From contig JAJRDC010000111.1 of NCBI GenBank assembly GCA_028678635.1, positions 1 through 12,984 on the forward strand: 12,984 nt of DNA, read 5' to 3'. The position numbers and the translations under genes were made by a program. This DNA comes from Methanomicrobiales archaeon. GTDB taxonomy: Archaea > Halobacteriota > Methanomicrobia > Methanomicrobiales > JACTUA01. The notes below the pieces were generated by a model, which ran no database searches, had not been told where the DNA came from, and saw only the letters and a list, made by a program, of their open reading frames with translations. Positions 1 to 12,846 of this stretch are shown piece after piece. How positions within the stretch are numbered: the stretch's first letter is position 1; every line of letters begins with the position of its first letter.

Positions 1-870
1 CCGGCCGTCGTGGAACTGGATCCCCTGACCCTGAAGCTGAAGGGGCCGAACACCTACTGGGAGGTCAACAAGGCCAATGCCGACCCGTACGGTGACTATA
101 TTTTCGGTCTCGGTGTGACCGGAACGGGCGCGAATCCCCAGGTCTATTTCATTGACGCCCAGACCAAGTTCCCCTCCTCCACGACAAAGAACAGCGTGTG
201 GAAGCTGGACATGGCCTCGGGGAAATCAACGAAGGTCCAGGCCCTCCCCAAGTTCGCCATGGGTCTCGGGGTCCCATCGCCCTCGGTGCCGAACGTCTAC
301 TACTATGCCGAGGGGAAGAACGTCCACATCATCCAGGGCGGCACGGTGATCCAGAGCCAGGTGTTCCCGACGAACATCGGCGGGGTTGAGGTGGTACCGG
401 ATCCCTCGAACCCGTTCCTCCTGGCCATCACCCGCGATGCCGGGAAACAGTATGTCTACCGGATATCCCTGGATCCCGCGACAGGCAAGATGATTCCCCC
501 GGTGGTGACCAATCTCATCATCAAGGCCAGCTCCATGTCCACCCTGTACCCCTACTCCTACACGGGCATCGCCTTTGCCCAGATTAACCTGGGTGGGGTG
601 GAGCGGCGGGTACTGTACGTAACCAAGGACGACGGTACCATCGAGCCATGGGACCGGATCGGGATCGTGGACTTCGATACCGGCGACATCCTGATGGAGG
701 CCTTCACCACCGACCTGGGCATCGAGGTGGATCCCGGAACCACCTGGCAGTCCGGAACCTCGGGCTACCTGAACTATGCGAACCCATCCGGCATTGACTA
801 TGTCGATGGCCGACTCTTCATCTCCTCGCTCCACTACTGGAACAAGGGGGACAAGTGGCCGCCGAAACCT
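1..870 (+). other. Beta-propeller-like N-terminal region of the giant protein
   Basis: About 287 residues with recurring short beta units that pair a value or display phrase with an aromatic strand, such as VYRISLDPATGKM, RIGIVDFDTGDIL and GIDYVDGRLFISS. This spacing resembles propeller blades of secreted repeat proteins with an N-terminal WD40/YVTN-like or LVIVD-like propeller. I cannot count blades reliably, and further blades may lie left of the window. The assignment rests on pattern only, with no diagnostic catalytic residue. Confidence 0.45.
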
Positions 871-3800
871 GAAGGCAAGTGCATCAGCGGCAAGAAGTGG
901 GAGGATAAAAACGGTGATGGCAAGAAGGATGCCGATGAGCCCTACATCGCCGGCTGGAAGATCACCCTCTACCGCTGGGACGGCTCCTCCTTTGTGCCCT
1001 ATGCAGAGACCACCACGGACTCAAACGGCGCCTACAAGTTCTGCAACCTGCCCCCCTGCACCTATTACAAGGTAGTGGAGGATCACCCGGCCGGATACAT
1101 CCAGACGTACCCTCAGGCACCGGGATACTGGATTATCTACCTGCCGGTCTGCACGAACCAGTATGACAAGAACTTCGGGAACAAGAAGGAACTGACAGGG
1201 AAGATCATCATCATCAAGGATGGCATCGGCTGCATGAAGCTCCCGTCCGGGATGGTGGGCTGGTGGCCGGGTGACGGGAATTCCCTGGACATGTACGATG
1301 GCAATCCGGGCTCGCCTGCCACCTATGCCGCGGGTAAGGTGGGAGAGGCCTTCGCCCTCGCCGACGTGGATGACGTGGTACAGATCCCGGAGGCGAGCAG
1401 CAACCTGGACGGATTCCAGAAGCTTTCGATTGACGCCTGGGTGAAACCAGATTCCCTGACCCCCGAGTACCAGACCATTGTGAGTAAATACGACGGATCC
1501 CTGAACAACGGTGTCAGCTACTGGCTCGGGCTCAGGAAGGACGGGCGTATCCAGTTCTCTGTCTATTCGGCCTACACCGCCGCTCCTTTCTCTTCCATGG
1601 GCTGGACCGCCATCACCACCGCCCAGGGACTGGCCCCGACAGACAAGTTCACTCACGTCTCCGGCGTGTGGAATGGGGGCCAGGATCTCGTTATTTATGT
1701 GAACGGTGTTGCACAGGCAGCCCCCGTCACGCCGAACGCAAACGGACCGGGCGGTGCCTCCACCGCTGATAACTCTGTACCGGTCACCATTGGGGCTGTG
1801 TGGAGGGAAGGCCCGGGATCCACGATGCCGGGGCTCCTCTTCACAGGTCTCATTGACGAGGTGGAGATCTTCGGGAGCGCGCTCACGAAGGATGAGATCC
1901 AGGCAATCGTCGCCGGTGGCAAGTGCAAGGGAATCTTCCACTACGATGCAGGCCAGGCACCTCTCGCTCCCTTCAACCTCCCCGTCGGAAGCTACCGGTC
2001 CTTTGACCCGGTCCCCGCCGGGACCTACACGGTCACGGAGACGCTCCCGCTCCCCGCAGGCTGGGAGTTCAAGAGCCTGGTCTGTGACGATGCCGAGACC
2101 CAGTACAGTGACGGCGGAAGGACTGCGAAGATCGACCTGGACGGCGGTGAGACGGTTACCTGCACCTACCGGAACGAGAAGCAGAAGGGGAAGATCGTCA
2201 TCAAGAAGGAAGGGGAGGACTGCATCTTCCCGCCGGACGGGATCACCGGCTGGTGGCCTGGCGACGACAGCATGGTTGACATCGCCGACGGCAACTTCGG
2301 CGCGGCACCCCCGCCCCCGGCCCAGGGTCCCTCGTATGCCGACGGGATCGTGGGACGGGCCTTCTCACTGGACGGGCAGAACGATGCCGTGCTGATCTCC
2401 GACACACAGGGCGGTGTCCCGCTGGATGGCTATAGCCAGCTGACCCTGGATGCCTGGGTGAAACCGGACACGGTGGACCCCGCCCTCCAGACCATTGTGG
2501 CGAAGTACGACTACGCGAAGAATGACGGGTACAGTTACTGGCTGGGTATCCTCCAGGGCGGGGCTGTCCGGTTCGCCGTCTACTCGGGGAACACGGGAGG
2601 GACCTGGTACGGCTCCTACATCGATACCGCCCCGGGTGTGATCACCCCCGGCCAGGCCTACCATGTGGCGGGCGTCTGGGACGGCGGAGACCTGCTGACC
2701 ATCTACGTCAACGGCGTCGGGTTCACTCCGCTGGTCCAGTACGGGAACGGCGGGGCGATGGGTCCCGTTCTCACCCAGAACGACATCCCGGTCACCATCG
2801 GCCGGGTTGAGTCCTCGCCCTTCACGACGTCCCCGGACTTCTATTTCGATGGCCTGATCGACGAGGTGGAGATCTTTGACCATGCCCTGACCGAAACGCA
2901 GGTTAAAGCCATCCACGCGAAGGGCAGTGGCGGCAAGTGCAAGGTGGGAACCGATGACTTCCAGTTCACCGGCACGGGCGGACTCGGGAACTTCCCCCTG
3001 AAGATCGGCCAGTCCAAGACCTTTGAAAACCTTGATCCCGGCCCGTACACCGTGACCGAGAGCGGGCTGCCGCCGGACTGGGCTCTGGACGACATCGTCT
3101 GCATAGACCCGACCACGAACACCGTTGTCGCGGATCCCTCCGCAACCATCCAGCTGGATGATGCAGAGACCGTCGTGTGCACGTTCGTGAACAAGGAGGA
3201 GGCCTGCGCCGGTAAGATCTGCGGGTACAAGTATAATGACCTGAACGGCGATGGGCAGATGGACGCGGGCGACACCGGCGTGGCAGGGGTGAAGATCCGG
3301 CTCTACCCCGGCACCTCCACCGCTGTCGACAGTGTGGATATCGGTCTCGTAGCCAGCGAGACCGGCCATAACCTGGCGGGATGGGGCCCGGTGGAGCCTG
3401 CCAGCTCTGGCGGAACCTACGGCGGCATCACCGATACCCGCGTCGCGTGGACCAAGGGCGACGCCCGGCCGGCCAGCTTCACGCTGGCAGTGTCCGATGT
3501 CACGAAGGACCACTACCTGCTCGCAAAGGTGCTGGATGGCATCGCAGACGACTCCTTCGTTGTCCTTGTGAACAACGATCCGGTGTATTCGTTCACCGGC
3601 AAGAACAATCCGGTCTCGGGTGGGCAGAACTACTTTGGTGATCCGGCCGGTACAACCGAGGTGTGGAGGACCCACGGGATCTTCCTGGCAAAGGAGATCC
3701 TTGTGGTAGGCGACAACACGGTCACCGTGATCCCCACGGGCCCCGCCTGGTCCGGCTTTGACACCTACGGTCAGCTGGCGGTGGATACTGTCGAGCTCCT

Positions 3801-6800
3801 GAAACTCGATGCACCCCTTGCAGAGGTGACCACTGACAGCAACGGGCACTACTGCTTCGAAGACCTTGCCGCAGGCGACTACTATGTCGGCGAAGCGGTG
3901 ATCCCGTCAGGCAACGTGCCCAGCACACATTCGATCCTGTCCAGGGTCACCCTTGCGTGCAATGAGGTAAAGGAGCCCCTGAACTTCTTCAACACGGGTC
4001 TCGTCAGGATCTGCGGTGAGAAGTACCGGGACGTGAACGCGAACGGCCTTGGGGATCCCGATGAAGGATTCGGCGGCGTGGGGATGACCCTCTTCACCCG
4101 GAGCCCCAACCCGGCTGACGGAGTGGACATCGGGGACACGGGGAGCGAGACCGGCCACAGCCTGAACGGCTGGGGCCCCATCGAACCCCTGACGAGCGGC
4201 GGGACATGGGGCGGCATCGACGACGCCCGCGCCACCTGGATCAAGGGTGACGGGCGCGGAGCCTCCTTCACCCTGGACGCCGGCGCCGGGAGTGACCACG
4301 AGCTGATCCTCCGGGTGCTGGACGGCCAGGCCGACGACTCGTTCATGGTCTTCGTGAACGGCGACCCGGTCTACCAGTACACGGCCAAGAACAGCCCGAA
4401 GCCCGGCGACGGGAACTACTTCGGCGACCCGCCCGGCCCCCAGGAGCTCTGGCGGGACCACCGGATCTACGTGTCCGGCACAGGCACCCTCACCATCAGC
4501 ATTGCCGCCATGGGTGACGCCTGGAGCGGCTTTGACACCTACGGCCAGCTGGGCGTGGATCGGGCAGACATCTACACCCTGACACAGGTCAGCGGGGGCA
4601 CGGCCATCACGGGAAGCGACGGGAAGTTCTGCTTCTTCCTGACCGGTATCGACCTCTCGCAGAACCCGGTGTTCTACATCGGCGAGACCGGTCTCCCCGA
4701 TGGTTCCATCCCGACCACCGGCTCGGTGAGCGATCCCGCCACCCAGCCCTACCTCTTCCGGAACACGGAGGAGCAGGACGTGGACAAGCTCTTTGACCTG
4801 GAGATCATCGAGTTCTGCCCGCCCGGCGATCTCGATGACTACACCACCTACACCCAGGGAGGCTGGGGCGGTCCCGGCGCACCGGGCCAGCTGCTGGCCA
4901 CCAACTTCGCGGCGGTCTACCCCTCCGGCGTGGAGGTCGGGATACCGGGTGCCGGTGGTTACTCCATAACGTTCACATCCGCGGCGGCGGTGGGGACCTA
5001 CCTCCCGGCAGGCGGAACGGCAGCCCCCCTCTCCGCTGATCATACGGATCCGGTGACTACGGAATCGGGTGTCTTCGGCGGCCAGGTGCTCGCCCTCCAG
5101 ATAAACGTGGACTTCAGCGATGCCGGCGTGACTGAGCCTGGACTCGGGGCCCTGATCTACGTGAATCCAGGTGATTCCCTGGACGGCAAGACCGTGCAGG
5201 AGATCCTGGATGTAGCAAACAGCGTCCTGGGCGGCGGTACCCTCCCTGCCGGATACACGGTATCTGATCTGAATGACCTGGTAACGCACCTGAACGAGGC
5301 CTTTGACAACGGCCTCACCTCCGGCTGGGCAGAGCAGCACCTGAAAGAGGCGGATGGCGAATGCATCTCGCCGGTGCCTGACGGGGCCATCCTGAAGGTG
5401 GACCTGACACGGGACGGGAACACCGTGACCCAGGTTCTGGTGGAGGGACCACCCGGCCACTGGACCACGGAGTTCACCGATCTCGAGCCCGGGTGCTACG
5501 GGTACCGGGTCTACTACGTCCTGGGCATCCAGGAAGTGATCCTCTTCCAGGGCACCGAGTGCCTCCCGGTCTCCATCACCAACCCCTTCACCCTGAAGCC
5601 CTGTGTTGCCCTGATAGGGATCAACAAGGACGGGCCGGAGGAGGCAGAACCCGGTGACACCGTGCACTACACGTATACCGTCACCAACATCGGCAACGAA
5701 CCCCTCGCCCTGGTCGGGGTGACCGATGACAAGGCGGGCGCGGCAAGCCCGGTGCTGGCCGGCGGCTTCAACGTCGGCGATCTGAACAAGGATGGGCTCC
5801 TGGACCTGAACGAAAAATGGCAGTTCACCGCGGATTACCAGATCCCTGCTGATTACCAGGGCGCGTCACTCATGAACGTTGCCACTGCCTCCGGGTCCGG
5901 ATGCGGAGGGGCCACCTCGTCCCATGATGACCACACGCTCGTGATCACCCGTACCGCCCAGATCTGCGGTACCAAGTTCAGCGATGACGATGGCAACGGC
6001 CAGCAGAGCGGAGGGGAGGCGGGCGTGGAGAACGTCCAGATGAAGCTCTTCACGATCGGGACCCTCTCCGACCGGGTGGAGATCGGTGATGCCGCCAGTG
6101 AAGCGACCCACAGCATGGACGGCTGGGGCCCCGTGGAACCCATGACCCACGGCGGCGGCTGGGGAGGAATCGCTCCCGGAACGCTCCGGGCCACCTGGGT
6201 GCCGGCGGACGCCCCCTGGGCATCCTTCACCCTGGATGCCGGCAGCGCCACCTCCAGCCTGCTGAAGATCCGGGCCCTTGACGGCGGCAGCGACGACTCC
6301 TTCCTGGTGGAGGTGGACGGCACGCCCGTCTACGTCTACCGGGCGAATCCGAGCACCACCGAGGTCTGGTACGTGCACGACATCTACGTTGCAGGTTCCG
6401 GGGTCAGGACCGTGAAGGTCACGGCCATCGGTGAGGCCGGGCCGTATTACGACCCGTACGGGCAGCTGGGCGTGGACTGGGCCGAGCTCTACCCGCTCAC
6501 CGCCACCGGCCACCAGGCAACCACCGGGAGCGACGGGAACTACTGCATCCAGATACCAGGCCTGACCCCGTCGCAGCTCCCGGCCACGTTCTACGTCGGA
6601 GAGATCGCGCCTCAGGGACGGATCCCCTCCACCGATTCGGTCCGGGGGCCCACCACCTTCACCATGGACGACTTCTCCTGGAATGTGATGGGCGAGAACT
6701 TCGGGAACCGGTTACCGAGCCTCCTCGTCGTGAAGAAGGTGGTGGAGAACCACGGCGTCGGGACGAAGGTACCGTCTGACTTCTCCTTCGCGAACAACGC

Positions 6801-8757
6801 GGGAACGCTCCAGAAGTTCGAGGTCGACGGGCAGAACGAGTATCCCTTCTACCTGGGAGCCTTTGCGGTGACCGAGCCGGCCGTGTCCGGGTACACCACG
6901 ACCTATGACGGCTGCGCCGGATCGGTCGCGCCCGGTGAGACAAAGACCTGCACCGTCACCAATTCCTGGCAGACAGGATCCATCGAGCTGACGAAGGTCT
7001 GGTCCGGAACGGCAGGCCGGACAACCCTGCAGATCGGGACATCGGCAGGGGACGACGATGTTGACTCCCAGCAGACCGGTGAGAACGGGGCAGCCCCCCT
7101 CACCACCGGTGCGAACACCGTCGCCGCCGGGACGTACTACGTCTCAGAGATCAATGGGCTCTCCGGCTACGACAAAGTCCTGGAATGCACGAAGAACGGG
7201 CAGGCGTATGTGCCAGGAGCCAATGGCCAGGTTCAGGTGGGAGCCGGCGACGTGGTGGTCTGCAGGTTCACGAACACGCGGCAGACAGGAAAGATCGAGC
7301 TGAAGAAGCACTGGGTCGGCACAGCCGGCAGCACCACGATCCGGATCGGGACCACCGAGGGTGGCCATGAGACCGACCAGGAGACGGTGAACGGCCAGGA
7401 CGGGACCACCGGGCAGAACACCGTTGATACCGGGACCTACTACCTGAGCGAGACGGCGCTGGCCGGGTATGACGCGGTCATCACCTGCCTGGACCAGCAG
7501 CAGAACCCGGTGGCGGTGGGATCCGATGGCGACGTCCAGGTAACGAAGGACAAGGAGATCACCTGCACCATCACCAACACGGAGGAAGCCACGGTGACGG
7601 TTGTGAAGACCGCCATCGGTGGTGACGCCACCTTCGGCTACACCGGCACCATCGGCGATCCCTTCAGCCTGACCACCGTTTCCGGCACCGCTTCGAAGGT
7701 GTTCACCTTCGAGAACCTGCCGGCCGACGGGGTCACGAAGACGGTGATCGAGTCGGCACCCTCGGCTCCATGGACCTTCACGAGCCTGCTCTGTGTCCCG
7801 GCAATGCCCGTCACTGACAGAACCGCCACCATCACGGTGAAGCCCGGGGATGACATCACCTGCACGTATACAAACACGAAGCAGGAGACCGTCACCAAGG
7901 CCTTTGACCTGGAGTGCGTGCCGGGCGGGTTCGAGGAGGGTGACTACTATACCTACACCCAGGGTGGCTGGGGCGGACAGCCAGCCGGGCAGAATGTCGG
8001 GCAGCTCCTGTACGAGAACTTCGATGATGTCTATCCGTCAGGATACGTTGAAGTGGGGATACCCGGATCCGGCGGATTCTCGATGACGTTCATCGGCCCC
8101 GGGTCCATCCAGAAGCCCCCGCCCAATTACCTGCCCGCGGGAGGCACCGCCGGCCCCCTGGACAATGACTATGTGTTCGACGGGGTGGATCCCGATCCCA
8201 CGAGCACCGGTTCCGGCGTCTTCGGCGGCCAGGTGCTGGCCCTCCAGCTGAACGTGGACTTTGCCTCGGCCGGGAAGACCGGGGGAGACCTGGGCCCCCT
8301 GGTCCTGACCGGTCTGACCGACGAGGGAGGATACCACCTGTCGTACTTCAACGGCATGACGGTCAGCCAGGTGCTTGCACTGGCCAACCAGGTGCTGGGA
8401 GGCGCCACGCCGCCCGCCGGTATCACGGTAGGAGATCTGAACCAGATCGCGGACCTGCTGAACAATGGCTTTGATAACGGCATTCCCACGGGGTGGGTCC
8501 AGCTGCACGTGGTTGCACCCTGTGTACCCGCCGGTGCGACTGCCTACGCATCCCTCAGTGGAACCGGAGGCACCCTGTCCACCGCCCTGACCCAGAACGG
8601 GCTCCACTACACGGGAAGCATCGCCGATGTGGTGAAGGGAACCTATGACGTCCGGTTCTACTACGTGCTGGGCGGCGAGACCACCCTGTGCACCACGGAC
8701 GATGAGAACCTGCAGCTTTCCATCACCAACTACTGCCTGTGGCCACCGGCTCCCTGA
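1..8757 (+). CDS. Giant extracellular multidomain Ig-like/LamG surface protein (5' end outside window)
   Basis: The frame is open from base 1 and ends at TGA 8755-8757. A GTG at 10 is an unlikely start: the frame continues upstream and no signal peptide follows. Counting from that GTG, the order is: beta-propeller-like region (1-287); SdrD/Cna-B-type domain (291-394) with a DxNxDGxxD Ca2+ loop; two prealbumin/SpaA-like domains (396-725, 727-1064), each holding a LamG domain; two SdrD-type domains (about 1066-1330, 1333-1588), each holding a jelly-roll-like guest; a TQGGWG module (1594-1865); a DUF11-type domain (1866-1980); a third SdrD-type domain with guest (1984-2234); four tandem prealbumin-like domains (2236-2625); a second TQGGWG module (2631-2915). 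The role is inferred: adhesion, sheath or S-layer-associated rod. The C-terminus (NYCLWPPAP) has no hydrophobic helix, PGF-CTERM or LPxTG signal, so anchoring is unexplained. A glycan-modification gene set follows. Extracellular repeat protein is near certain; ligand and function are unknown. Confidence 0.93.
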   Translation, partial: PAVVELDPLTLKLKGPNTYWEVNKANADPYGDYIFGLGVTGTGANPQVYFIDAQTKFPSSTTKNSVWKLDMASGKSTKVQALPKFAMGLGVPSPSVPNVYYYAEGKNVHIIQGGTVIQSQVFPTNIGGVEVVPDPSNPFLLAITRDAGKQYVYRISLDPATGKMIPPVVTNLIIKASSMSTLYPYSYTGIAFAQINLGGVERRVLYVTKDDGTIEPWDRIGIVDFDTGDILMEAFTTDLGIEVDPGTTWQSGTSGYLNYANPSGIDYVDGRLFISSLHYWNKGDKWPPKPEGKCISGKKWEDKNGDGKKDADEPYIAGWKITLYRWDGSSFVPYAETTTDSNGAYKFCNLPPCTYYKVVEDHPAGYIQTYPQAPGYWIIYLPVCTNQYDKNFGNKKELTGKIIIIKDGIGCMKLPSGMVGWWPGDGNSLDMYDGNPGSPATYAAGKVGEAFALADVDDVVQIPEASSNLDGFQKLSIDAWVKPDSLTPEYQTIVSKYDGSLNNGVSYWLGLRKDGRIQFSVYSAYTAAPFSSMGWTAITTAQGLAPTDKFTHVSGVWNGGQDLVIYVNGVAQAAPVTPNANGPGGASTADNSVPVTIGAVWREGPGSTMPGLLFTGLIDEVEIFGSALTKDEIQAIVAGGKCKGIFHYDAGQAPLAPFNLPVGSYRSFDPVPAGTYTVTETLPLPAGWEFKSLVCDDAETQYSDGGRTAKIDLDGGETVTCTYRNEKQKGKIVIKKEGEDCIFPPDGITGWWPGDDSMVDIADGNFGAAPPPPAQGPSYADGIVGRAFSLDGQNDAVLISDTQGGVPLDGYSQLTLDAWVKPDTVDPALQTIVAKYDYAKNDGYSYWLGILQGGAVRFAVYSGNTGGTWYGSYIDTAPGVITPGQAYHVAGVWDGGDLLTIYVNGVGFTPLVQYGNGGAMGPVLTQNDIPVTIGRVESSPFTTSPDFYFDGLIDEVEIFDHALTETQVKAIHAKGSGGKCKVGTDDFQFTGTGGLGNFPLKIGQSKTFENLDPGPYTVTESGLPPDWALDDIVCIDPTTNTVVADPSATIQLDDAETVVCTFVNKEEACAGKICGYKYNDLNGDGQMDAGDTGVAGVKIRLYPGTSTAVDSVDIGLVASETGHNLAGWGPVEPASSGGTYGGITDTRVAWTKGDARPASFTLAVSDVTKDHYLLAKVLDGIADDSFVVLVNNDPVYSFTGKNNPVSGGQNYFGDPAGTTEVWRTHGIFLAKEILVVGDNTVTVIPTGPAWSGFDTYGQLAVDTVELLKLDAPLAEVTTDSNGHYCFEDLAAGDYYVGEAVIPSGNVPSTHSILSRVTLACNEVKEPLNFFNTGLVRICGEKYRDVNANGLGDPDEGFGGVGMTLFTRSPNPADGVDIGDTGSETGHSLNGWGPIEPLTSGGTWGGIDDARATWIKGDGRGASFTLDAGAGSDHELILRVLDGQADDSFMVFVNGDPVYQYTAKNSPKPGDGNYFGDPPGPQELWRDHRIYVSGTGTLTISIAAMGDAWSGFDTYGQLGVDRADIYTLTQVSGGTAITGSDGKFCFFLTGIDLSQNPVFYIGETGLPDGSIPTTGSVSDPATQPYLFRNTEEQDVDKLFDLEIIEFCPPGDLDDYTTYTQGGWGGPGAPGQLLATNFAAVYPSGVEVGIPGAGGYSITFTSAAAVGTYLPAGGTAAPLSADHTDPVTTESGVFGGQVLALQINVDFSDAGVTEPGLGALIYVNPGDSLDGKTVQEILDVANSVLGGGTLPAGYTVSDLNDLVTHLNEAFDNGLTSGWAEQHLKEADGECISPVPDGAILKVDLTRDGNTVTQVLVEGPPGHWTTEFTDLEPGCYGYRVYYVLGIQEVILFQGTECLPVSITNPFTLKPCVALIGINKDGPEEAEPGDTVHYTYTVTNIGNEPLALVGVTDDKAGAASPVLAGGFNVGDLNKDGLLDLNEKWQFTADYQIPADYQGASLMNVATASGSGCGGATSSHDDHTLVITRTAQICGTKFSDDDGNGQQSGGEAGVENVQMKLFTIGTLSDRVEIGDAASEATHSMDGWGPVEPMTHGGGWGGIAPGTLRATWVPADAPWASFTLDAGSATSSLLKIRALDGGSDDSFLVEVDGTPVYVYRANPSTTEVWYVHDIYVAGSGVRTVKVTAIGEAGPYYDPYGQLGVDWAELYPLTATGHQATTGSDGNYCIQIPGLTPSQLPATFYVGEIAPQGRIPSTDSVRGPTTFTMDDFSWNVMGENFGNRLPSLLVVKKVVENHGVGTKVPSDFSFANNAGTLQKFEVDGQNEYPFYLGAFAVTEPAVSGYTTTYDGCAGSVAPGETKTCTVTNSWQTGSIELTKVWSGTAGRTTLQIGTSAGDDDVDSQQTGENGAAPLTTGANTVAAGTYYVSEINGLSGYDKVLECTKNGQAYVPGANGQVQVGAGDVVVCRFTNTRQTGKIELKKHWVGTAGSTTIRIGTTEGGHETDQETVNGQDGTTGQNTVDTGTYYLSETALAGYDAVITCLDQQQNPVAVGSDGDVQVTKDKEITCTITNTEEATVTVVKTAIGGDATFGYTGTIGDPFSLTTVSGTASKVFTFENLPADGVTKTVIESAPSAPWTFTSLLCVPAMPVTDRTATITVKPGDDITCTYTNTKQETVTKAFDLECVPGGFEEGDYYTYTQGGWGGQPAGQNVGQLLYENFDDVYPSGYVEVGIPGSGGFSMTFIGPGSIQKPPPNYLPAGGTAGPLDNDYVFDGVDPDPTSTGSGVFGGQVLALQLNVDFASAGKTGGDLGPLVLTGLTDEGGYHLSYFNGMTVSQVLALANQVLGGATPPAGITVGDLNQIADLLNNGFDNGIPTGWVQLHVVAPCVPAGATAYASLSGTGGTLSTALTQNGLHYTGSIADVVKGTYDVRFYYVLGGETTLCTTDDENLQLSITNYCLWPPAP
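880..1191 (+). other. SdrD/Cna-B-type Ig-like domain with Ca2+ loop (no guest)
   Basis: This is the plain version of the domain that later carries guests. It opens CISGKKWEDKNGDGKKDADE, with the D-x-N-x-D-G-x-x-D/E calcium loop of SdrD B-type repeats, then GWKITLYRW, then the closing TTDSNGAYKFCNLPPCTYY and FGNKKE. Because the KITLYRW strand runs straight into TTTDSNGAYKF here, it serves as the internal reference showing where later copies have been interrupted. Confidence 0.85.
1234..1923 (+). repeat. LamG domain, copy 1, nested in a prealbumin-like domain
   Basis: About 230 residues with LamG/concanavalin-like hallmarks: GWWPGDGNSLD at the start, LSIDAWVKPD, QTIVSKYDG, GVWNGGQDLVIYVNG, and the ending FTGLIDEVEIFGSALTKDEI. 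Such domains usually bind carbohydrate or protein. It is bracketed by Cys408 and Cys639 (numbered from the GTG at 10). It lies between the first strand of a prealbumin-like domain (GKIIIIKDG) and the rest of that domain (from 1930). Copy 2 at 2224-2937 is a clear paralogue, with near-identical stretches around DAWVKPD and LIDEVEIF. Confidence 0.88.
2224..2937 (+). repeat. LamG domain, copy 2, nested in a prealbumin-like domain
   Basis: About 238 residues, paralogous to copy 1: GWWPGDDSMVD, LTLDAWVKPD, QTIVAKYDY, GVWDGGDLLTIYVNG, FDGLIDEVEIFDHALTETQV. Flanking Cys738 and Cys977 match the Cys pair around copy 1. The host strand GKIVIKKEG precedes it, and the host resumes at DDFQFTGTGGLGNFPL, the usual continuation of this prealbumin-like family. 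The two host-plus-guest units most likely arose by duplication of the whole nested unit. Confidence 0.88.
3319..3801 (+). repeat. Jelly-roll-like guest domain, copy 1, inside an SdrD-type domain
   Basis: About 160 residues inserted between the host strand VKIRLYPG and the host ending TTDSNGHYCFEDLAAGDYY. Hallmarks shared by all three copies are SETGHNLAGWGPVEP, a GGxxGGI turn, VLDGIADDSF, an xVWRTH strand and YGQLAVDTVEL at the end. The pattern of alternating hydrophobic strands suggests a galactose-binding-like or CBM-like beta sandwich. The fold is inferred and I recognise no named family. Confidence 0.7.
4111..4581 (+). repeat. Jelly-roll-like guest domain, copy 2, inside an SdrD-type domain
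   Basis: The second copy follows the host start ICGEKYRDVNANGLGDPDE and strand VGMTLFTRS. It contains SETGHSLNGWGPIEP, VLDGQADDSF, ELWRDH and FDTYGQLGVDRADIY. It shares the FxGxNNP/NYFGDP-type loop with copy 1, so these adjacent copies look like the most recent duplication. The host resumes at ITGSDGKFCFFLTG. Confidence 0.7.
4789..5604 (+). repeat. TQGGWG two-part module, copy 1
   Basis: The first part (4789-5367) runs from LFDLEIIEFC through YTTYTQGGWGG, VYPSGVEVGIPG, YLPAGGTAAPL, GVFGGQVLALQINVDFS and LGGGTLPAGYTVSDLN to FDNGLTSGWAEQHL. I recognise this pattern from surface proteins of diverse bacteria and archaea but cannot attach a family accession. The second part (5374-5604) is a short beta domain ending YRVYYVLG...VSITN. 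The same pair in the same order closes the protein, so the module is a two-part duplicated unit. Confidence 0.8.
5605..5949 (+). other. DUF11-type conserved repeat domain
   Basis: A single copy opening ALIGINKDGPEEAEPGDTV and continuing HYTYTVTNIGNEPL, with the hallmark V-x-Y-x-Y-T-V-T-N-x-G pattern of DUF11/conserved-repeat domains in archaeal and bacterial surface proteins. It ends with NVATASGSGCGG and HTLVI. An internal DLNKDGLLDLNE resembles a calcium loop. The domain separates the first TQGGWG module from the third guest-bearing domain. Confidence 0.8.
6058..6498 (+). repeat. Jelly-roll-like guest domain, copy 3, inside an SdrD-type domain
   Basis: This copy has SEATHSMDGWGPVEP, ALDGGSDDSF, EVWYVH and YGQLGVDWAELY. 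It is somewhat shorter than copies 1 and 2 because the NYFGDP-containing loop is absent. The host domain begins ICGTKFSDDDGNGQQSGGE, in which the calcium loop has lost the usual Asp at position 9. The host resumes at TTGSDGNYCIQIPG and ends ENFGNRLPS. Confidence 0.7.
6715..7884 (+). repeat. Four tandem prealbumin/SpaA-like domains
   Basis: The units are about 6715-6972, 6973-7284, 7285-7587 and 7588-7884, roughly 86-104 residues each. Each starts with a beta strand ending in Lys (LLVVKK, IELTKVW, IELKKHW, VTVVKTA), has a central (S/T/I)E after an aromatic or hydrophobic strand, and closes with C-x-(F/V/I/Y)-T-N. Units 2 and 3 are closest to each other (IEL-x-K-x-W-x-GTAG), pointing to recent duplication. 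The layout matches CnaB-type stalk domains, including the residues that form Lys-Asn isopeptide bonds. Confidence 0.85.
7900..8754 (+). repeat. TQGGWG two-part module, copy 2 (C-terminus)
   Basis: AFDLECVPGG opens the copy, followed by YYTYTQGGWGGQ, VYPSGYVEVGIPG, YLPAGGTAGPL, GVFGGQVLALQLNVDFA, LGGATPPAGITVGDLN and FDNGIPTGWVQLHV. The second part (from about 8524) ends VRFYYVLGG...LQLSITNYC. It is more than 2.5 kb from copy 1 and clearly diverged, so the duplication is old. The protein ends nine residues after the ITN strand begins, without any membrane anchor. Confidence 0.8.
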
Positions 8758-8916: not shown

Positions 8917-8952
8917 ATGGGTACGACAGACCACTCCCTTGCCCGAGCATGA
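8917..8952 (+). CDS. 11-codon leader frame overlapping the deacetylase start
   Basis: ATG 8917 opens MGTTDHSLARA and ends at TGA 8950-8952. Its stop overlaps the deacetylase ATG (8949-8951) as ATGA. It has the only good ribosome-binding site in the leader, at a normal 5-base spacing, whereas the deacetylase ATG has none at a normal distance. In-frame extension of the deacetylase upstream is blocked by TGA 8913-8915, with no other start codon between. The likely role is translational coupling to the deacetylase. The peptide shows no signal or run of one amino acid that would suggest attenuation. A chance frame is the main alternative. Confidence 0.4.
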   Translation: MGTTDHSLARA

Positions 8953-9857
8953 ACCCGCACACCCTCTCCGTTACGGTGGACATCGAGGACTGGTACCATA
9001 TCCCCTCGGTGACCGGCTCCCCCTTCTCCGTATACCGCGACACGGATGAATTCTTCCGGCGATGGGAAGGGAGATACGATTTCCTGACGGAACCGACACG
9101 GCGGACACTGGATCTCCTGGATGATCTGGAGATCACCGCCACCTTCTTTGTCGTGGCCGGGGTGGTGGAGCGGTACCCGGGTCTCGTGGAGTCCATCGTC
9201 GAACGGGGCCACGAGATCGGGTGCCACGGCCTGCACCACGGCTGTACCCTGGACCCCGGCACGAAGCAGCCATTTCTTCCTCCCCCGGAGTTTGAGGCCC
9301 AGACCATTGCCGCAAAGGCCATCCTGGAGAAGGTCAGCAGAGCACCGGTGGTCGGGTACCGTGCACCCAGTGCCTACCTTGGAGGGTGGATGCTGGACAC
9401 CCTCGAGAACCTGGGGTTCCTCTACGATTCCTCTGTCTCTGTGAACTCGCTGTACAACAAGACCAACTCGGACCTGGGGAGAGTCGGAACCATCCCCTAC
9501 TTCCCGGCACCGGGAACCCTCCTTCCCGGCGGGAACCGCCGGCTGGTGGAGTTCCCCTTCCCCTACTGGCAGGGGGCGGGTCTCCGGATCCCGACTGCCG
9601 GCGGCCCTGTGCTCCGGTTCCTGGGGGCCGGGGTGGTCCTCCGGGGGATCCGCCAGAGCCTCTCCCGGGGCCCCACGCTCTTCTACTTCCATCCCGTGGA
9701 TATCGCAAGGGAGAAGTTCCCTGACGTGGGGAAAGGGCGACCGCTCTACTGGATGATCAAGGGGGAGCGGGTGGAGCGGAGGATCCGGAAGGTGCTGGAC
9801 GAGCTCCGTGACGTTCCCAAGGCAACGCTGGGCGATGTGCGCGGGGGAATGGGGTGA
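8949..9857 (+). CDS. NodB-fold polysaccharide deacetylase
   Basis: 302 residues. It should hydrolyse N-acetyl groups from a GlcNAc-type polysaccharide or lipid-linked glycan using a divalent metal. Visible motifs: VDIEDWYH (residues 10-17, motif 1, with candidate catalytic/metal Asp at 11 or 14), TATFF (63-67), GHEIGCHGLHH (motif 2, metal-binding H93 and H97), GYRAPS (motif 3, R138-A-P140) and FYFHP (H248). The DIEDWYH opening and YFHP ending resemble the subfamily found in exopolysaccharide/exosortase loci rather than peptidoglycan or chitin deacetylases. There is no signal peptide or membrane helix, so action on a cytoplasmic or membrane-face intermediate is inferred. The start is fixed by an upstream in-frame TGA and appears translationally coupled to the 11-codon leader. 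It leads the plus-strand glycan gene set. Confidence 0.9.
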   Translation: MNPHTLSVTVDIEDWYHIPSVTGSPFSVYRDTDEFFRRWEGRYDFLTEPTRRTLDLLDDLEITATFFVVAGVVERYPGLVESIVERGHEIGCHGLHHGCTLDPGTKQPFLPPPEFEAQTIAAKAILEKVSRAPVVGYRAPSAYLGGWMLDTLENLGFLYDSSVSVNSLYNKTNSDLGRVGTIPYFPAPGTLLPGGNRRLVEFPFPYWQGAGLRIPTAGGPVLRFLGAGVVLRGIRQSLSRGPTLFYFHPVDIAREKFPDVGKGRPLYWMIKGERVERRIRKVLDELRDVPKATLGDVRGGMG

Positions 9858-9956
9858 CCATTCAACGACGGGGGCGGCTATGCAAAAGGGATAATTCCTC
9901 CCACTCCCCACTACTCCCCGTAGGTTGTCCCTGGGACTCTCGGCAGGGTGTTTCTG

Positions 9957-10538
9957 ATGGGTGTCGTGTCTGAGCGGGATGCCGAGGCTTTCGATGAGGC
10001 CGTGGAAGTGCGGGGCTCCAGCCGGATCGGCTTTGGTCTCCGGTTCCTCTGGAACTGGTTCCTAGAACGGCTCGCCCTCGGCTTCCCTGTCCCGTCCTGG
10101 CGGGCAGCGCTCCACCGGGCACGGGGGGTTCGCATCGGGAAGAACGTGTACATCGGCTACGACGTGATCTTTGACCGCGTCTATCCCGACCTGATCACCA
10201 TCGAGGATTATGCCGTCATCGCGGACCGGTGCATCATCAGTTCTCACAGCGGTGGTGCCACGCTGCTGCGATCGGTGTATCCCCGGGAGATGAAGCCGGT
10301 AAAGATCGGCAGGGGAGCCTGGCTCTCCCCGGCCTGTATCGTCATCATGGGAGTCGAGATCGGTGAGCTGTCGGTGATAGGAACCGGTGCAGTCGTGACC
10401 CGCACCATCCCTCCCAGGTCGGTGGCTGTCGGGGTACCGGCCCGGGTGATCAAGACACTGGACATTCAGGAACCGGAGCGGGAAAGGCCCCTGCCAATGT
10501 CGGGTGTGAAGGGGATGGGGGATGAAAAATCATCATGA
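9957..10538 (+). CDS. Left-handed beta-helix (hexapeptide-repeat) acyltransferase
   Basis: 193 residues from ATG 9957; an in-frame GTG at 9948 would add three residues. ATG is preferred because GGGTG (9945-9949) then lies 7 bases upstream. Hexapeptide-repeat turns are visible: VRIGKNVYIGYDVIF (58-72), LITIEDYAVIADRCII (79-94), VKIGRGAWLSPACIVI (115-130) and VEIGELSVIGTGAVVTR (133-149), then the typical end SVAVGVPARVIKTL. H97 in SSHSGG sits where this family has its catalytic His. Members transfer acetyl (or other acyl) from CoA to a sugar hydroxyl or amino group, acting as trimers. An N-terminal aromatic stretch (28-49) may help membrane association but is not a clear helix. It ends in an ATGA overlap with the WbqC gene, so the two are co-translated. 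The acceptor sugar is unknown. Confidence 0.9.
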   Translation: MGVVSERDAEAFDEAVEVRGSSRIGFGLRFLWNWFLERLALGFPVPSWRAALHRARGVRIGKNVYIGYDVIFDRVYPDLITIEDYAVIADRCIISSHSGGATLLRSVYPREMKPVKIGRGAWLSPACIVIMGVEIGELSVIGTGAVVTRTIPPRSVAVGVPARVIKTLDIQEPERERPLPMSGVKGMGDEKSS

Positions 10539-11245
10539 TCGTCTCCATGCACCAGCCCAACTACCTCCCGTATCTGGGCTTTTTCCAGAAGGTTGCCGCC
10601 GCGGAGCTCTTCATCTTCCTTGACGTGGTGCAGCTCACAGAGGGAGGCTACACCCGGAGGGTCAGGATCCGGACGAAAGAGGGATCCGACTGGCTCTCCA
10701 TCCCGATGCCGGGGGAAAACCGGCTGGCACCCATCGACCAGGCAAGGCTCCTTCCCGATAACCGGTGGCGGAAGAAGCACCGGAATCTCCTCTCGGCCAA
10801 CTATGACCGGGCCCCCTTCTTTGACCAGGAGTTCGTGGAGGATTACTACCGCCGACCGTTCACCACCCTGCGGGAGATGAACGAGCACGGGATACGGTAC
10901 CTGATGGGCCGGCTGGGGCTCTCCACCCGGACCATGCGCGCCAGCGATCTCCCGGTGAACCGGACCCTGAAATCCACGGAGATCCTGGTGGAGATCCTCT
11001 CCCGGGCAGGGGCCGATGTCTTCATCTCGGGGGCAACCGGCATGGACTACATGGATGAAACGAAGTTTGCCGACGCCGGGATCGAGCTCCGCTACCTGGA
11101 TTTCCATCCGGTGCCGTACCCCCAGCGATGGCCCGGTTTCGTGCCCTACCTCTCAGCCCTGGACCTTGTGTTCAATGTCCCTTCGGAGGAGTGCCACCGG
11201 ATGGTCAGGGCCACTGATGGGGTTGAGGGTCCCGCGACATCCTAA
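10535..11245 (+). CDS. WbqC-family protein of surface-polysaccharide loci
   Basis: 236 residues. The family signature HQPNYLPYLGFF (6-17) is followed by FIFLDVVQLT, a basic RRVRIRTKEGSDWLSIP stretch and the conserved C-terminal features ISGATGMDYMD and FVPYLSALDLVFN. WbqC-like proteins occur in O-antigen and capsule clusters, often beside DegT aminotransferases. They are thought to act in modifying amino sugars, but the exact reaction for this member cannot be read from sequence. ATG 10535 overlaps the acyltransferase TGA (ATGA), and GGGGGATG (10517-10524) inside that gene is the likely ribosome-binding site. The DxVQ-x-x-K pattern of many relatives is replaced by DVVQLTEGGY. The last dozen residues are unconserved in character. 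No signal peptide or membrane segment is visible. Confidence 0.9.
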   Translation: MIVSMHQPNYLPYLGFFQKVAAAELFIFLDVVQLTEGGYTRRVRIRTKEGSDWLSIPMPGENRLAPIDQARLLPDNRWRKKHRNLLSANYDRAPFFDQEFVEDYYRRPFTTLREMNEHGIRYLMGRLGLSTRTMRASDLPVNRTLKSTEILVEILSRAGADVFISGATGMDYMDETKFADAGIELRYLDFHPVPYPQRWPGFVPYLSALDLVFNVPSEECHRMVRATDGVEGPATS

Positions 11246-11319
11246 GATCCGGGACAATCCGATACGTTCATGAGACCCGGGCTGCAAGGGAGGTGTGCAG
11301 GGCCGGCCGTCGGGGCACC

Positions 11320-11330
11320 GGTGGAGAAGG
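11320..11330 (+). promoter_or_regulatory. Ribosome-binding site deciding the start at 11340
   Basis: GGTGGAGAAGG lies nine bases before ATG 11340. The alternative in-frame GTG at 11295 has GGGAGG only one base away, too close to work, so ATG 11340 is preferred. Confidence 0.5.
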
Positions 11331-11339
11331 ATACGACCC

Positions 11340-11936
11340 ATGGCAACGGATCAGCAGGTCAGCTGCCACTTCAAATTCGATGACAACCGCGAGGCCACGG
11401 AGCCGTACCCCTTCTCGCTTTTCGATACCCGCAGCTGGCGGTTCACGGTGAACCGGCTGGCCTACGACATGGGAGACCGGCATCCCTGGATTCCGGAGTC
11501 CGGGCGCAGGGTCATGCGGGTGCGATCGTACTTCAGGAGGGCTATGGCAGGAACACTGAGGCCGGGAGAAATCCCGGCAGATGCAAAGATTCTGAACCTG
11601 GAACCCGGCGAATGGGTGGAGGTACGGCCGGTCAAGGAAATCCAGGCAACCCTTGACGCCAGGGGGCGCCTGCGGGGCCTGGTCTTCATGCCCGAGATGC
11701 AGCAGTTCTGCGGGAAACGGTTCCGGGTCTTCAAGAAAGTGAAGACCATTGTGCTTGAGACCAACCAGGAGATGCGGAAGATCGGCAGCCCCACCGTGTT
11801 CCTGGAGGGATCCCTGTGCGACGGTTCCTACCACGGGGGCTGCGACCGGTCCTGCTTTATGTTCTGGCGGGAGGAGTGGCTCCGGAGGGTTCCGGGGCCG
11901 GAAGGTACTGACGCCGGAACTCCGAAGGATACGTGA
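11340..11936 (+). CDS. Conserved Cys-rich protein of glycan loci, function unknown
   Basis: 198 residues from ATG 11340. I recall similar unnamed proteins beside polysaccharide genes in archaea and bacteria but know no family name. The middle, LNLEPGEWVEVRPVKEI (86-102) and LVFMPEM...FCGKRFRVFKKV (114-134), reads like a small SH3-like beta barrel. The end carries C160-DGSYHGG-C168-DRS-C172-FMFWREEWLRRV. With C124 there are four Cys, plus H165, that could bind Zn or an Fe-S cluster. The first 80 residues are basic and aromatic (SWRFTVNRLAYDMG). No signal peptide or transmembrane helix is visible. It follows the WbqC gene by 94 bases on the same strand, so co-transcription is plausible. The role is unknown; partner or regulator of the glycan enzymes is a guess from position. 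Confidence 0.8.
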   Translation: MATDQQVSCHFKFDDNREATEPYPFSLFDTRSWRFTVNRLAYDMGDRHPWIPESGRRVMRVRSYFRRAMAGTLRPGEIPADAKILNLEPGEWVEVRPVKEIQATLDARGRLRGLVFMPEMQQFCGKRFRVFKKVKTIVLETNQEMRKIGSPTVFLEGSLCDGSYHGGCDRSCFMFWREEWLRRVPGPEGTDAGTPKDT

Positions 11937-11943
11937 ACGCATA

Positions 11944-11974
11944 AACCATTCGTACCGGTTCATCCTCTTTTCTT
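11944..11974 (+). terminator. Possible terminator of the plus-strand gene set
   Basis: A weak hairpin (AACC 11944-11947 with GGTT 11957-11960) is followed by the pyrimidine run CCTCTTTTCTT (11964-11974) shortly after the stop at 11936. The T-run is interrupted, so this is only a plausible archaeal-type terminator. Confidence 0.3.
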
Positions 11975-12067
11975 ACGGGAGGGGCATTGCCCCATCCCGG
12001 GCCCTCGCCACGACGAGAGGCTAGGGTAGTCCAGACCATTCACTGAAACTGCTCTCATGCCGATCAA

Positions 12068-12117
12068 CCGCGGGGGGACGCCCACGCGGCGGGGGGGCGG
12101 AGCCCCCCAGGAGCGTC
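12068..12117. repeat. GC-rich perfect hairpin in the convergent gap
   Basis: GGGGGGC (12092-12098) and GCCCCCC (12102-12108) form a perfect 7-bp stem with a GGA loop. Outer arms GACGC (12077-12081) or ACGC (12084-12087) can pair with GCGTC (12113-12117), and a CCGCGG palindrome sits at 12068-12073. A G7 run and this stem are unlike the flanking DNA. Candidates are a bidirectional terminator between the converging genes or one copy of a dispersed intergenic palindromic repeat. The rest of 11937-12207 contains no gene I can support. Confidence 0.6.
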
Positions 12118-12152
12118 TCACCAATACAATACGAATGCCATCCACTGACGGA

Positions 12153-12204
12153 TCTCGCATCATAAACCTTTAAGGGATCACACCATGTCGTTGGAAATGC
12201 GAGA
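12153..12204. repeat. 8-bp inverted repeat around a TATA-like element
   Basis: TCTCGCAT (12153-12160) and ATGCGAGA (12197-12204) are perfect inverted copies separated by 36 bases. Between them is ATAAACCTTTAAGG (12162-12175), which resembles an archaeal BRE/TATA box for plus-strand transcription. The right arm ends four bases from the stop codon of the minus-strand PIG-L gene. It could be an operator-like site, part of that gene's 3' end, or chance. Confidence 0.35.
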
Positions 12205-12207
12205 CAG

Positions 12208-12846
12208 TTAGTACAGCATCCGGATGCACTCGAAGACCTCGGCAAAGTCCACGCCCACGTTCATGCCGCGGGTGTAGGCCGAGGACCGGACGTACTCTGG
12301 GGAGAAGTAGGGCCGGTAGGACTGGCTGTTGTACTGGGCCAGGGCCTGGATCTTCTGCTCTAGGTGCCGGGCCTCCAGGGCCATGAAGATGTCAGTCCGG
12401 AAGCTGATGTTGTTCCAGGGATGCTCCATGCCCCAGATGGAGGAGATCTTCTTGAAGGCCCGGACCGTCTCGTGGTAGATCACCTGGTGATCCTGGTGGG
12501 TGTCGAAAGACGAGGGGGTGATGACGAGTTCCGGCTGGACATCCCGCCCGATATGGATCATCCGGTCCAGGATCTCCTGGCGGAGGCGGGGGAACTCCCG
12601 CACCTCGAAGTCCAGGAGCATCAGGTTCCGTGCCGGTATCCCCAGCTGGCCGGTGGCGAGGTGGCACTCCTGCTTCAGGATATCCATGGGCTCTCCAGGC
12701 TGGAGCGACTTCTCGCAGGAAGAGAAGGCGACGTAGTGAATGTCATGCCCCTCCTCTGCGAGACGTGCGATGGTGCCCCCTGCCGAGATCTCGCCGTCGT
12801 CGGGATGGGGGGAGAGGATCAGGATCCGGTCCGGTGCCCGCGTCAT
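12208..12846 (-). CDS. PIG-L/LmbE-type N-acetylglucosaminyl deacetylase
   Basis: 212 residues, close to the usual family length. The family is Zn-dependent and removes N-acetyl groups from GlcNAc-linked small molecules, lipids or sugar intermediates in the cytoplasm. The metal-site motifs are intact: SPHPDDGE (H14, D16, D17, E19) and THQDH (H117, D119, H120). The Rossmann-like start RILILSPHPDD is typical. The C-terminal Tyr-rich stretch YNSQSYRPYFSPEYVRSSAY is also typical of PIG-L proteins in sugar-biosynthesis loci. ATG 12846 overlaps the aminotransferase stop as ATGA, with ribosome-binding sequence GGGGTGAT (12857-12850) inside that gene. An aminotransferase feeding a deacetylase suggests amino-sugar tailoring; the substrate is unknown. 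It converges on the plus-strand glycan genes. Confidence 0.93.
   Translation of the reverse strand: MTRAPDRILILSPHPDDGEISAGGTIARLAEEGHDIHYVAFSSCEKSLQPGEPMDILKQECHLATGQLGIPARNLMLLDFEVREFPRLRQEILDRMIHIGRDVQPELVITPSSFDTHQDHQVIYHETVRAFKKISSIWGMEHPWNNISFRTDIFMALEARHLEQKIQALAQYNSQSYRPYFSPEYVRSSAYTRGMNVGVDFAEVFECIRMLY

Follow-up and report, generated by a model that had tools for sequence, protein, structure and literature searches.

LamG domains very likely inserted into two CnaB-type stalk domains of a giant archaeal surface protein

The CnaA and CnaB folds tolerate insertions into their loops, and the inserted segments are usually isopeptide or adhesion domains, according to a 2025 survey (PMC12617251). 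The inserts named in the legend to Figure 1 of that survey are CnaB, vWFa, and TED, and it reports that domains accompanying isopeptide folds were seldom found in archaea (PMC12617251). The survey used AlphaFold-database proteins of up to 1280 residues, and therefore proteins of the size described here lie outside it (PMC12617251). The insertion of domain D3 into domain D2 of RrgA and the arrangement in Mfa5 are solved examples of nesting (PMC5333627, PMC7835359). In RrgA, the tip adhesin of pneumococcal pilus-1, domain D2 is formed by two halves around the inserted D3, and a Lys-Asn isopeptide bond joins the halves (PMC5333627). In Mfa5, from the fimbrial tip of Porphyromonas gingivalis, a vWF domain is located between the strands of an isopeptide Ig-like domain, with the bond-forming Lys in the first segment and the Asn in the second (PMC7835359). 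Tip pilins that bear VWA domains have also been described, and the portions of these papers available to us add nothing on nesting (PMC5536039, PMC3490378).

The two split stalk domains described here resemble RrgA and Mfa5 in these respects, whereas the guests and hosts of the solved examples are different. RrgA has a vWF-type guest in a CnaA-like host, and Mfa5 has a vWF guest inserted between strands B and C of a CnaA-like host, as compared in PMC7835359. RrgA is a component of a Gram-positive sortase pilus and its bond was shown experimentally, whereas the bond in our protein is predicted. A split CnaB-like host is found in PDB entry 2XID, which we take to be Cpa of Streptococcus pyogenes. 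Its SpaA domain (PF17802) is made up of segments 291-384 and 588-598, and its isopeptide residues are Lys-Glu-Asp; unlike in our protein, the gap precedes the last segment rather than following the first strand, and its entry in the survey names no LamG (PMC12617251).

The window, by which we mean the whole stretch of 12,984 nucleotides that was analysed, encodes a giant surface protein on the + strand (1..8757), with 2918 residues visible and its 5' end lost at the edge of the contig. Its reading frame is open up to the contig start. An earlier count began at the GTG at nucleotide 10, and the visible residues are numbered here three higher than in the first-pass annotation (Cys 411/642 and 741/980; Lys 406 and 736). 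That annotation placed two consecutive prealbumin-like domains, each interrupted by a LamG domain, at 1195-3201, which is essentially right: the sequence that it described is encoded by this frame, and the units run from 1198 to 2178 and from 2188 to 3198.

Unit 1 begins with the host strand A, GKIIIIKDG (residues 400-408, 1198..1224 on the + strand), in which the codon of Lys406 occupies 1216-1218. It is followed by the guest, a LamG_3 domain bracketed by Cys411 and Cys642 (residues 411-642, 1231..1926, +; PF13385, E 8.8e-24), and by the host body comprising strands B onward (residues 643-726, 1927..2178, +), which matches SpaA_4 (PF24514) with an E-value of 4.5e-8 and contains Glu680, Asn725, and its own cysteines 695 and 721. 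Unit 2 has the same order: strand A, GKIVIKKEG (residues 730-738, 2188..2214, +), with the codon of the strand-A Lys736 at 2206-2208 (+), the Cys-bracketed LamG_3 guest (residues 741-980, 2221..2940, +), and the body (residues 981-1066, 2941..3198, +; PF24514, E 9e-12) with Glu1020, Asn1064, and its own cysteines 1034 and 1060. LamG_3 was found twice by Pfam (PF13385, E 3e-42 for the whole protein), and the guests score 84.8 and 84.2 bits over profile positions 4-151 and 1-151 of 151, which is a full-length match to Laminin_G_3; the structure search described below agrees with the jelly-roll fold of this family. Both bodies score above the curated SpaA_4 cutoff of 27.3 bits, with 46.2 bits in unit 2 and 34.3 bits in unit 1. 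The match in unit 2 covers positions 10-106 of the 107-position profile, so the first strand is missing after LamG; the same start at position 10 is seen in the body of the short homologue L017, and the match in unit 1 begins later (positions 46-103 of 107). As judged from the sequence, the hosts are split and the guests complete, and it is very likely that two SpaA_4 domains of the CnaB type are each divided after strand A by a whole LamG_3 domain. A split stalk domain with a complete second domain in a loop is what characterizes RrgA, Cpa, and Mfa5, and the predicted model described below is consistent with it.

The guest of the window protein lies outside the guest types described for adhesins of the RrgA, Cpa, and Mfa5 type, which are VWA, thioester, and CnaB domains. 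The first-pass annotation knew of no described LamG-in-CnaB nesting in archaeal surface proteins. We likewise found no LamG as guest of a CnaB or isopeptide domain in the open-access literature, whereas the principle of insertion was already known (PMC12617251, PMC5333627, and PMC7835359). The architecture is therefore a known design with a new guest, an A-B loop site, and an archaeal lineage; these three aspects appear to be new. Domain insertion of this kind, described for bacterial pilus tips in which VWA or thioester domains are the guests of isopeptide-type stalk domains, is thereby extended to the surface protein of a probable methanogen that has lectin-like guests, in a different loop.

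The assignment of strand A was examined with an 11-residue profile made from 80 segments of uninterrupted SpaA_4-like domains. The model that gathered the training domains (94, of which 80 had an ungapped start) had a single uninterrupted domain from the window protein as its seed; P0001, P0002, P0003, and P0039 were left out, and all 94 members come from other proteins. The best two of the 2908 positions in the window protein are 729 (KGKIVIKKEGE, 23.5 bits) and 399 (TGKIIIIKDGI, 17.6 bits), both just before LamG, in agreement with the nesting proposed earlier. The next four positions are strands of domains read as uninterrupted SpaA-type in the same protein. Elsewhere, the strand scores 19.6 in L017 and 17.4 in the locus L003. 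For 495 LamG domains the upstream sequence was long enough to be scored: the flanks of the seven nested ones score 17.8-21.6, and those of the other 488 reach at most 9.05. P0133 is cut before the body and was classed as nested from what lies upstream, which makes that row circular.

These results bear on the possibility that the units are beads on a string, in which strand A just links two domains or extends LamG at its N-terminus, and the body folds by itself as a truncated CnaB domain. In six units the body reaches 57-68 bits on its own, and the joined flanks add little in unit 1, as would be expected from such an arrangement. The strand-A motif is nevertheless the best match in the whole protein with its invariant Lys kept, and the 488 un-nested LamG flanks have no such strand. 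Comparison of the halves alone and joined with HMMER, which had been proposed as a check, is a weak test that depends on the register of the loop, and it bore out the split host in part: in four units, only 3-17 of 1000 random peptides equalled the gain from the joined flanks, whereas the gain was small in unit 1 (equalled by 406 of 1000) and in unit 1 of P0002 (69 of 1000). In profile-profile comparison with the uninterrupted family, the body by itself scored 125.1 and the joined host 134.4, with strand A aligned on strand A; the latter score was equalled by four of 100 column permutations, so the support is moderate.

An AlphaFold2 model of unit 2 calculated from 34 sequences (pLDDT 91.2, pTM 0.83) contains a separate strand at model residues 4-13 (block means 91 and 82), the LamG domain, and body strands at 259-340. 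The linkers are less sure, with block means of 82 (residues 11-20) and 66 (residues 251-260). In the underlying alignment, strand A was supplied by nested relatives only and by no row of an intact SpaA domain, so the intact domains did not place the strand for the model; the SpaA rows had been cut after strand B because MAFFT misplaces them in most mixtures. A model of both units together from three sequences reached a pLDDT of 42. The 50 matches listed in a structure search were all LamG, with no CnaB among them, and the CnaB fold of the host is predicted from its sequence. Among these 50 matches, the LamG fold covers model residues 15-254 at most, and every LamG alignment begins at residue 15 or later, leaving the strand outside. 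Strand A is thus predicted by the model to be a strand separate from LamG, as the first-pass annotation had expected, and we regard beads on a string as improbable.

Many of the structure matches listed were receptor-binding domains of clostridial neurotoxins; this likeness reflects no more than the common jelly-roll fold and carries no information on function. The closest fold to the guest among the matches listed is domain 4 of AbnA, a Geobacillus arabinanase (5hon, 5ho2). Compared by its title, which is without CnaB nesting, that match differs from our protein in being an enzyme domain. The guest is a concanavalin-like, probably carbohydrate-binding domain, and the likeness to AbnA domain 4 suggests that it may bind sugar.

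The strand before LamG could also be donated backwards, completing the preceding stalk domain and not the one after LamG, and it does come directly after the end of the previous stalk domain. The positions of strand A relative to SpaA_4-like bodies argue otherwise. The 240 retrieved proteins contain 114 such bodies, of which 103 are immediately preceded by their own strand A; most of the 103 were also in the training set of the profile. Nine of the other eleven have a strand A farther upstream, and seven of the eleven are nested units, two of them in the window protein, with the strand 239-253 residues upstream. Two of the nine, P0003 at 3053 and P0106 at 987, score lower across short gaps and were excluded from the count of nests. 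The proteins L017 and P0122 stop approximately ten residues past the body, and consequently no strand A other than the one preceding LamG can complete it; under backward donation this body would have none. Such donation is therefore highly improbable, and we retain the reading in which the strand belongs to the body beyond LamG.

The cysteines that bracket the guest were considered in the first-pass annotation as a clamp specific to the graft point, and this proposal was rejected, since the bracket marks the LamG family at large, in which nearly all domains are un-nested. In a first count of 390 LamG matches, 355 were near full length, in 109 proteins; the window's own domains were left out, P0002 and P0003 were kept, and four of the 355 were nested. 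Cysteines were present near both ends in 299 of the 355 and at neither end in 42. A second set gave the bracket in 106 of 137 near-full LamG domains. By eye, the bracket C...WWPGD...AGSxGKC also occurs right after signal-peptide-like starts and in tandem LamG arrays. The Cys pair belongs to the guest and, at the level of sequence, is no evidence on the graft. The guest would bring its terminal pair with it: as the bracket is common in the family, a putative disulfide, if formed, came along with the module.

Complete nested units number eight in five proteins, with two each in the window protein, P0002, and P0003, and one each in P0122 and L017. Partial units are present in P0121, P0133, P0039, and L003. 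The locus L017 (1-2517), with a 909-residue open frame, encodes a short homologue with one nested unit that ends in CGSP soon after the body, and is a minimal form of the giant protein. The similarity of guests correlates with that of hosts over the eight units (r 0.68, permutation p 0.003), which fits a single insertion, after which the unit was duplicated as a whole. The nested unit thus appears to be inherited as such.

The isopeptide triad of SpaA_4, which the 2025 survey lists as CnaB-like with the bond residues Lys, Glu, and Asn (PMC12617251), straddles the insertion as Lys406/Glu680/Asn725 and Lys736/Glu1020/Asn1064. The Lys is upstream of the insert, where the first-pass annotation had put it, and the Glu and Asn are downstream. 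In uninterrupted domains, the Lys is present in 80 of 80 training strands, the Glu motif in 87 of 94, and the terminal Asn in 94 of 94. The Lys, both guest cysteines, the Glu, and the Asn are invariant across six aligned units; the triad is conserved.

Based on these observations, a mechanism of force bypass can be proposed. LamG is very likely inserted between strands A and B of two CnaB-type stalk domains, and each host would close around its insert by pairing of strand A with the downstream body. Lys406 and Lys736 on strand A may form isopeptide bonds with Asn725 and Asn1064 on the last strand, assisted by Glu680 and Glu1020. A pulling force would then enter by strand A, cross the isopeptide bond, and leave by the last strand, bypassing LamG, which would hang sideways within a covalent loop, presumably staying folded and able to bind a ligand under load. 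We consider this explanation as a whole, with nesting in the A-B loop, closure of the host by the isopeptide bond, and force bypass, to be likely. The unit is compact and stands alone at the end of L017, and it should therefore express easily, which makes the idea of force shielding directly testable.

Alternatively, the nesting may be real and mechanically neutral, a loop insertion tolerated after domain shuffling, with neither isopeptide bond nor force shielding. In favor of this reading, our searches found the arrangement in one protein family only, and we infer both force and binding from the architecture. The invariance of the Lys-Glu-Asn triad in the six aligned units speaks against it, as does a second, unrelated pair of host and guest nested within the same protein, and we consider neutrality rather unlikely.

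In that second pair, the host is an SdrD_B domain (PF17210). The N-terminal half of copy 1 (residues 1073-1103, 3217..3309, +) matches profile positions 3-33 (E 7.8e-6, 26.5 bits), an inserted domain of approximately 165 residues follows (3310..3810, +) with no Pfam match above cutoff, and the C-terminal half (residues 1271-1310, 3811..3930, +) matches positions 37-75 (E 8e-7, 29.7 bits). The N-terminal half alone is below the cutoff of 29.7 bits, and both halves together reach 52 bits. Further copies of this nest are probable near 4009-4700 and 5962-6600, where the sequence repeats. Pfam supports both halves in copy 1 only; the N-terminal half of copy 3 is a weak match below the cutoff, and that of copy 2 gave none. 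L017 has a weak SdrD_B match of 26.8 bits, relative to the same cutoff. The motif of the insert occurs three times in the window protein and twice each in P0002, P0003, and P0039. When the insert of copy 2 was used as the query against 2149 candidates comparable in length, four proteins were matched, all of this protein family and one of them the window protein itself, and a sequence search of the PDB with the insert found nothing. It is conceivable, if somewhat doubtful, that the two kinds of nest reflect a general building rule by which binding modules are spliced into loops of covalently lockable stalk domains and project sideways, in comb fashion, from an inextensible shaft that shields them from tension. 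The two unrelated host-guest pairs in one protein would then represent convergent use of one design.

The distribution of the nested unit is narrow in the searches made. None of 98 pattern matches in viral contigs encodes a relative, and a search of genome contigs gave 15 loci. In the forward frames of 50 loci, 43 LamG matches were found in 33 loci; strand A precedes LamG only in L003 and L017, and the body also follows only in L017, L003 being cut by the contig end. Within the order of genome G001, 57 of 232 genomes match with E <= 0.001, and among the matches listed none but those in G009 and G001 begins at position 1 of the profile. The class search, covering the same number of genomes as the order, again gave G009 and G001 as the two with E <= 1e-15. 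In a sample of the phylum, 13 of 392 genomes match with E <= 1e-15; only G001 is matched from position 1, and the others have guest or body alone. The rows of G290 and G371 begin at positions 5 and 10 and include no body, and the forward frames of G290 (L049) contain no strand A before LamG. The relatives bearing a name (P0039 and L003) are from Methanomicrobiales, and on protein similarity, with no marker gene involved, that order is the very probable source of the window. An assembly or frameshift artefact was considered, since the window is a single contig and P0121 seems by eye to carry a frameshift close to its end. The same junctions are present in JGI and ENA records and in genomes G001 and G009, and the NCBI record P0039 holds the guest-body junction, so the chance of an artefact is negligible.

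The window protein is best explained as a fibrillar-adhesin-like surface protein, and its visible part consists largely of CnaB-type and related stalk domains; as a whole, we regard this reading as likely. The relatives P0002 (3664 residues) and P0003 (3730 residues) both start approximately 140 residues before it, and by comparison with them we infer that about that many N-terminal residues are absent from the window protein. The N-terminus of P0002 and P0003 looks like a signal peptide by eye. The C-termini vary: the window protein stops after a domain starting with YTQGGWGG, whereas P0003 ends in a tail rich in Pro, Thr, Glu, and Val, and no sorting signal was recognized by eye at the C-termini of the window protein, P0002, and P0003. 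The YTQGGWGG domain is present in two copies in the window protein (4849-5600 and 7954-8757), neither of which has a Pfam match, and once in P0002 by motif. Downstream of the giant protein, the Pfam assignments in the window at 8949-12846 include a polysaccharide deacetylase with DUF3473, a hexapeptide transferase, and WbqC. A PIG-L deacetylase is encoded on the - strand, and a gene at 11295-11936 has no Pfam match. The genes at 8949-12846 look like a glycan-synthesis neighbourhood.
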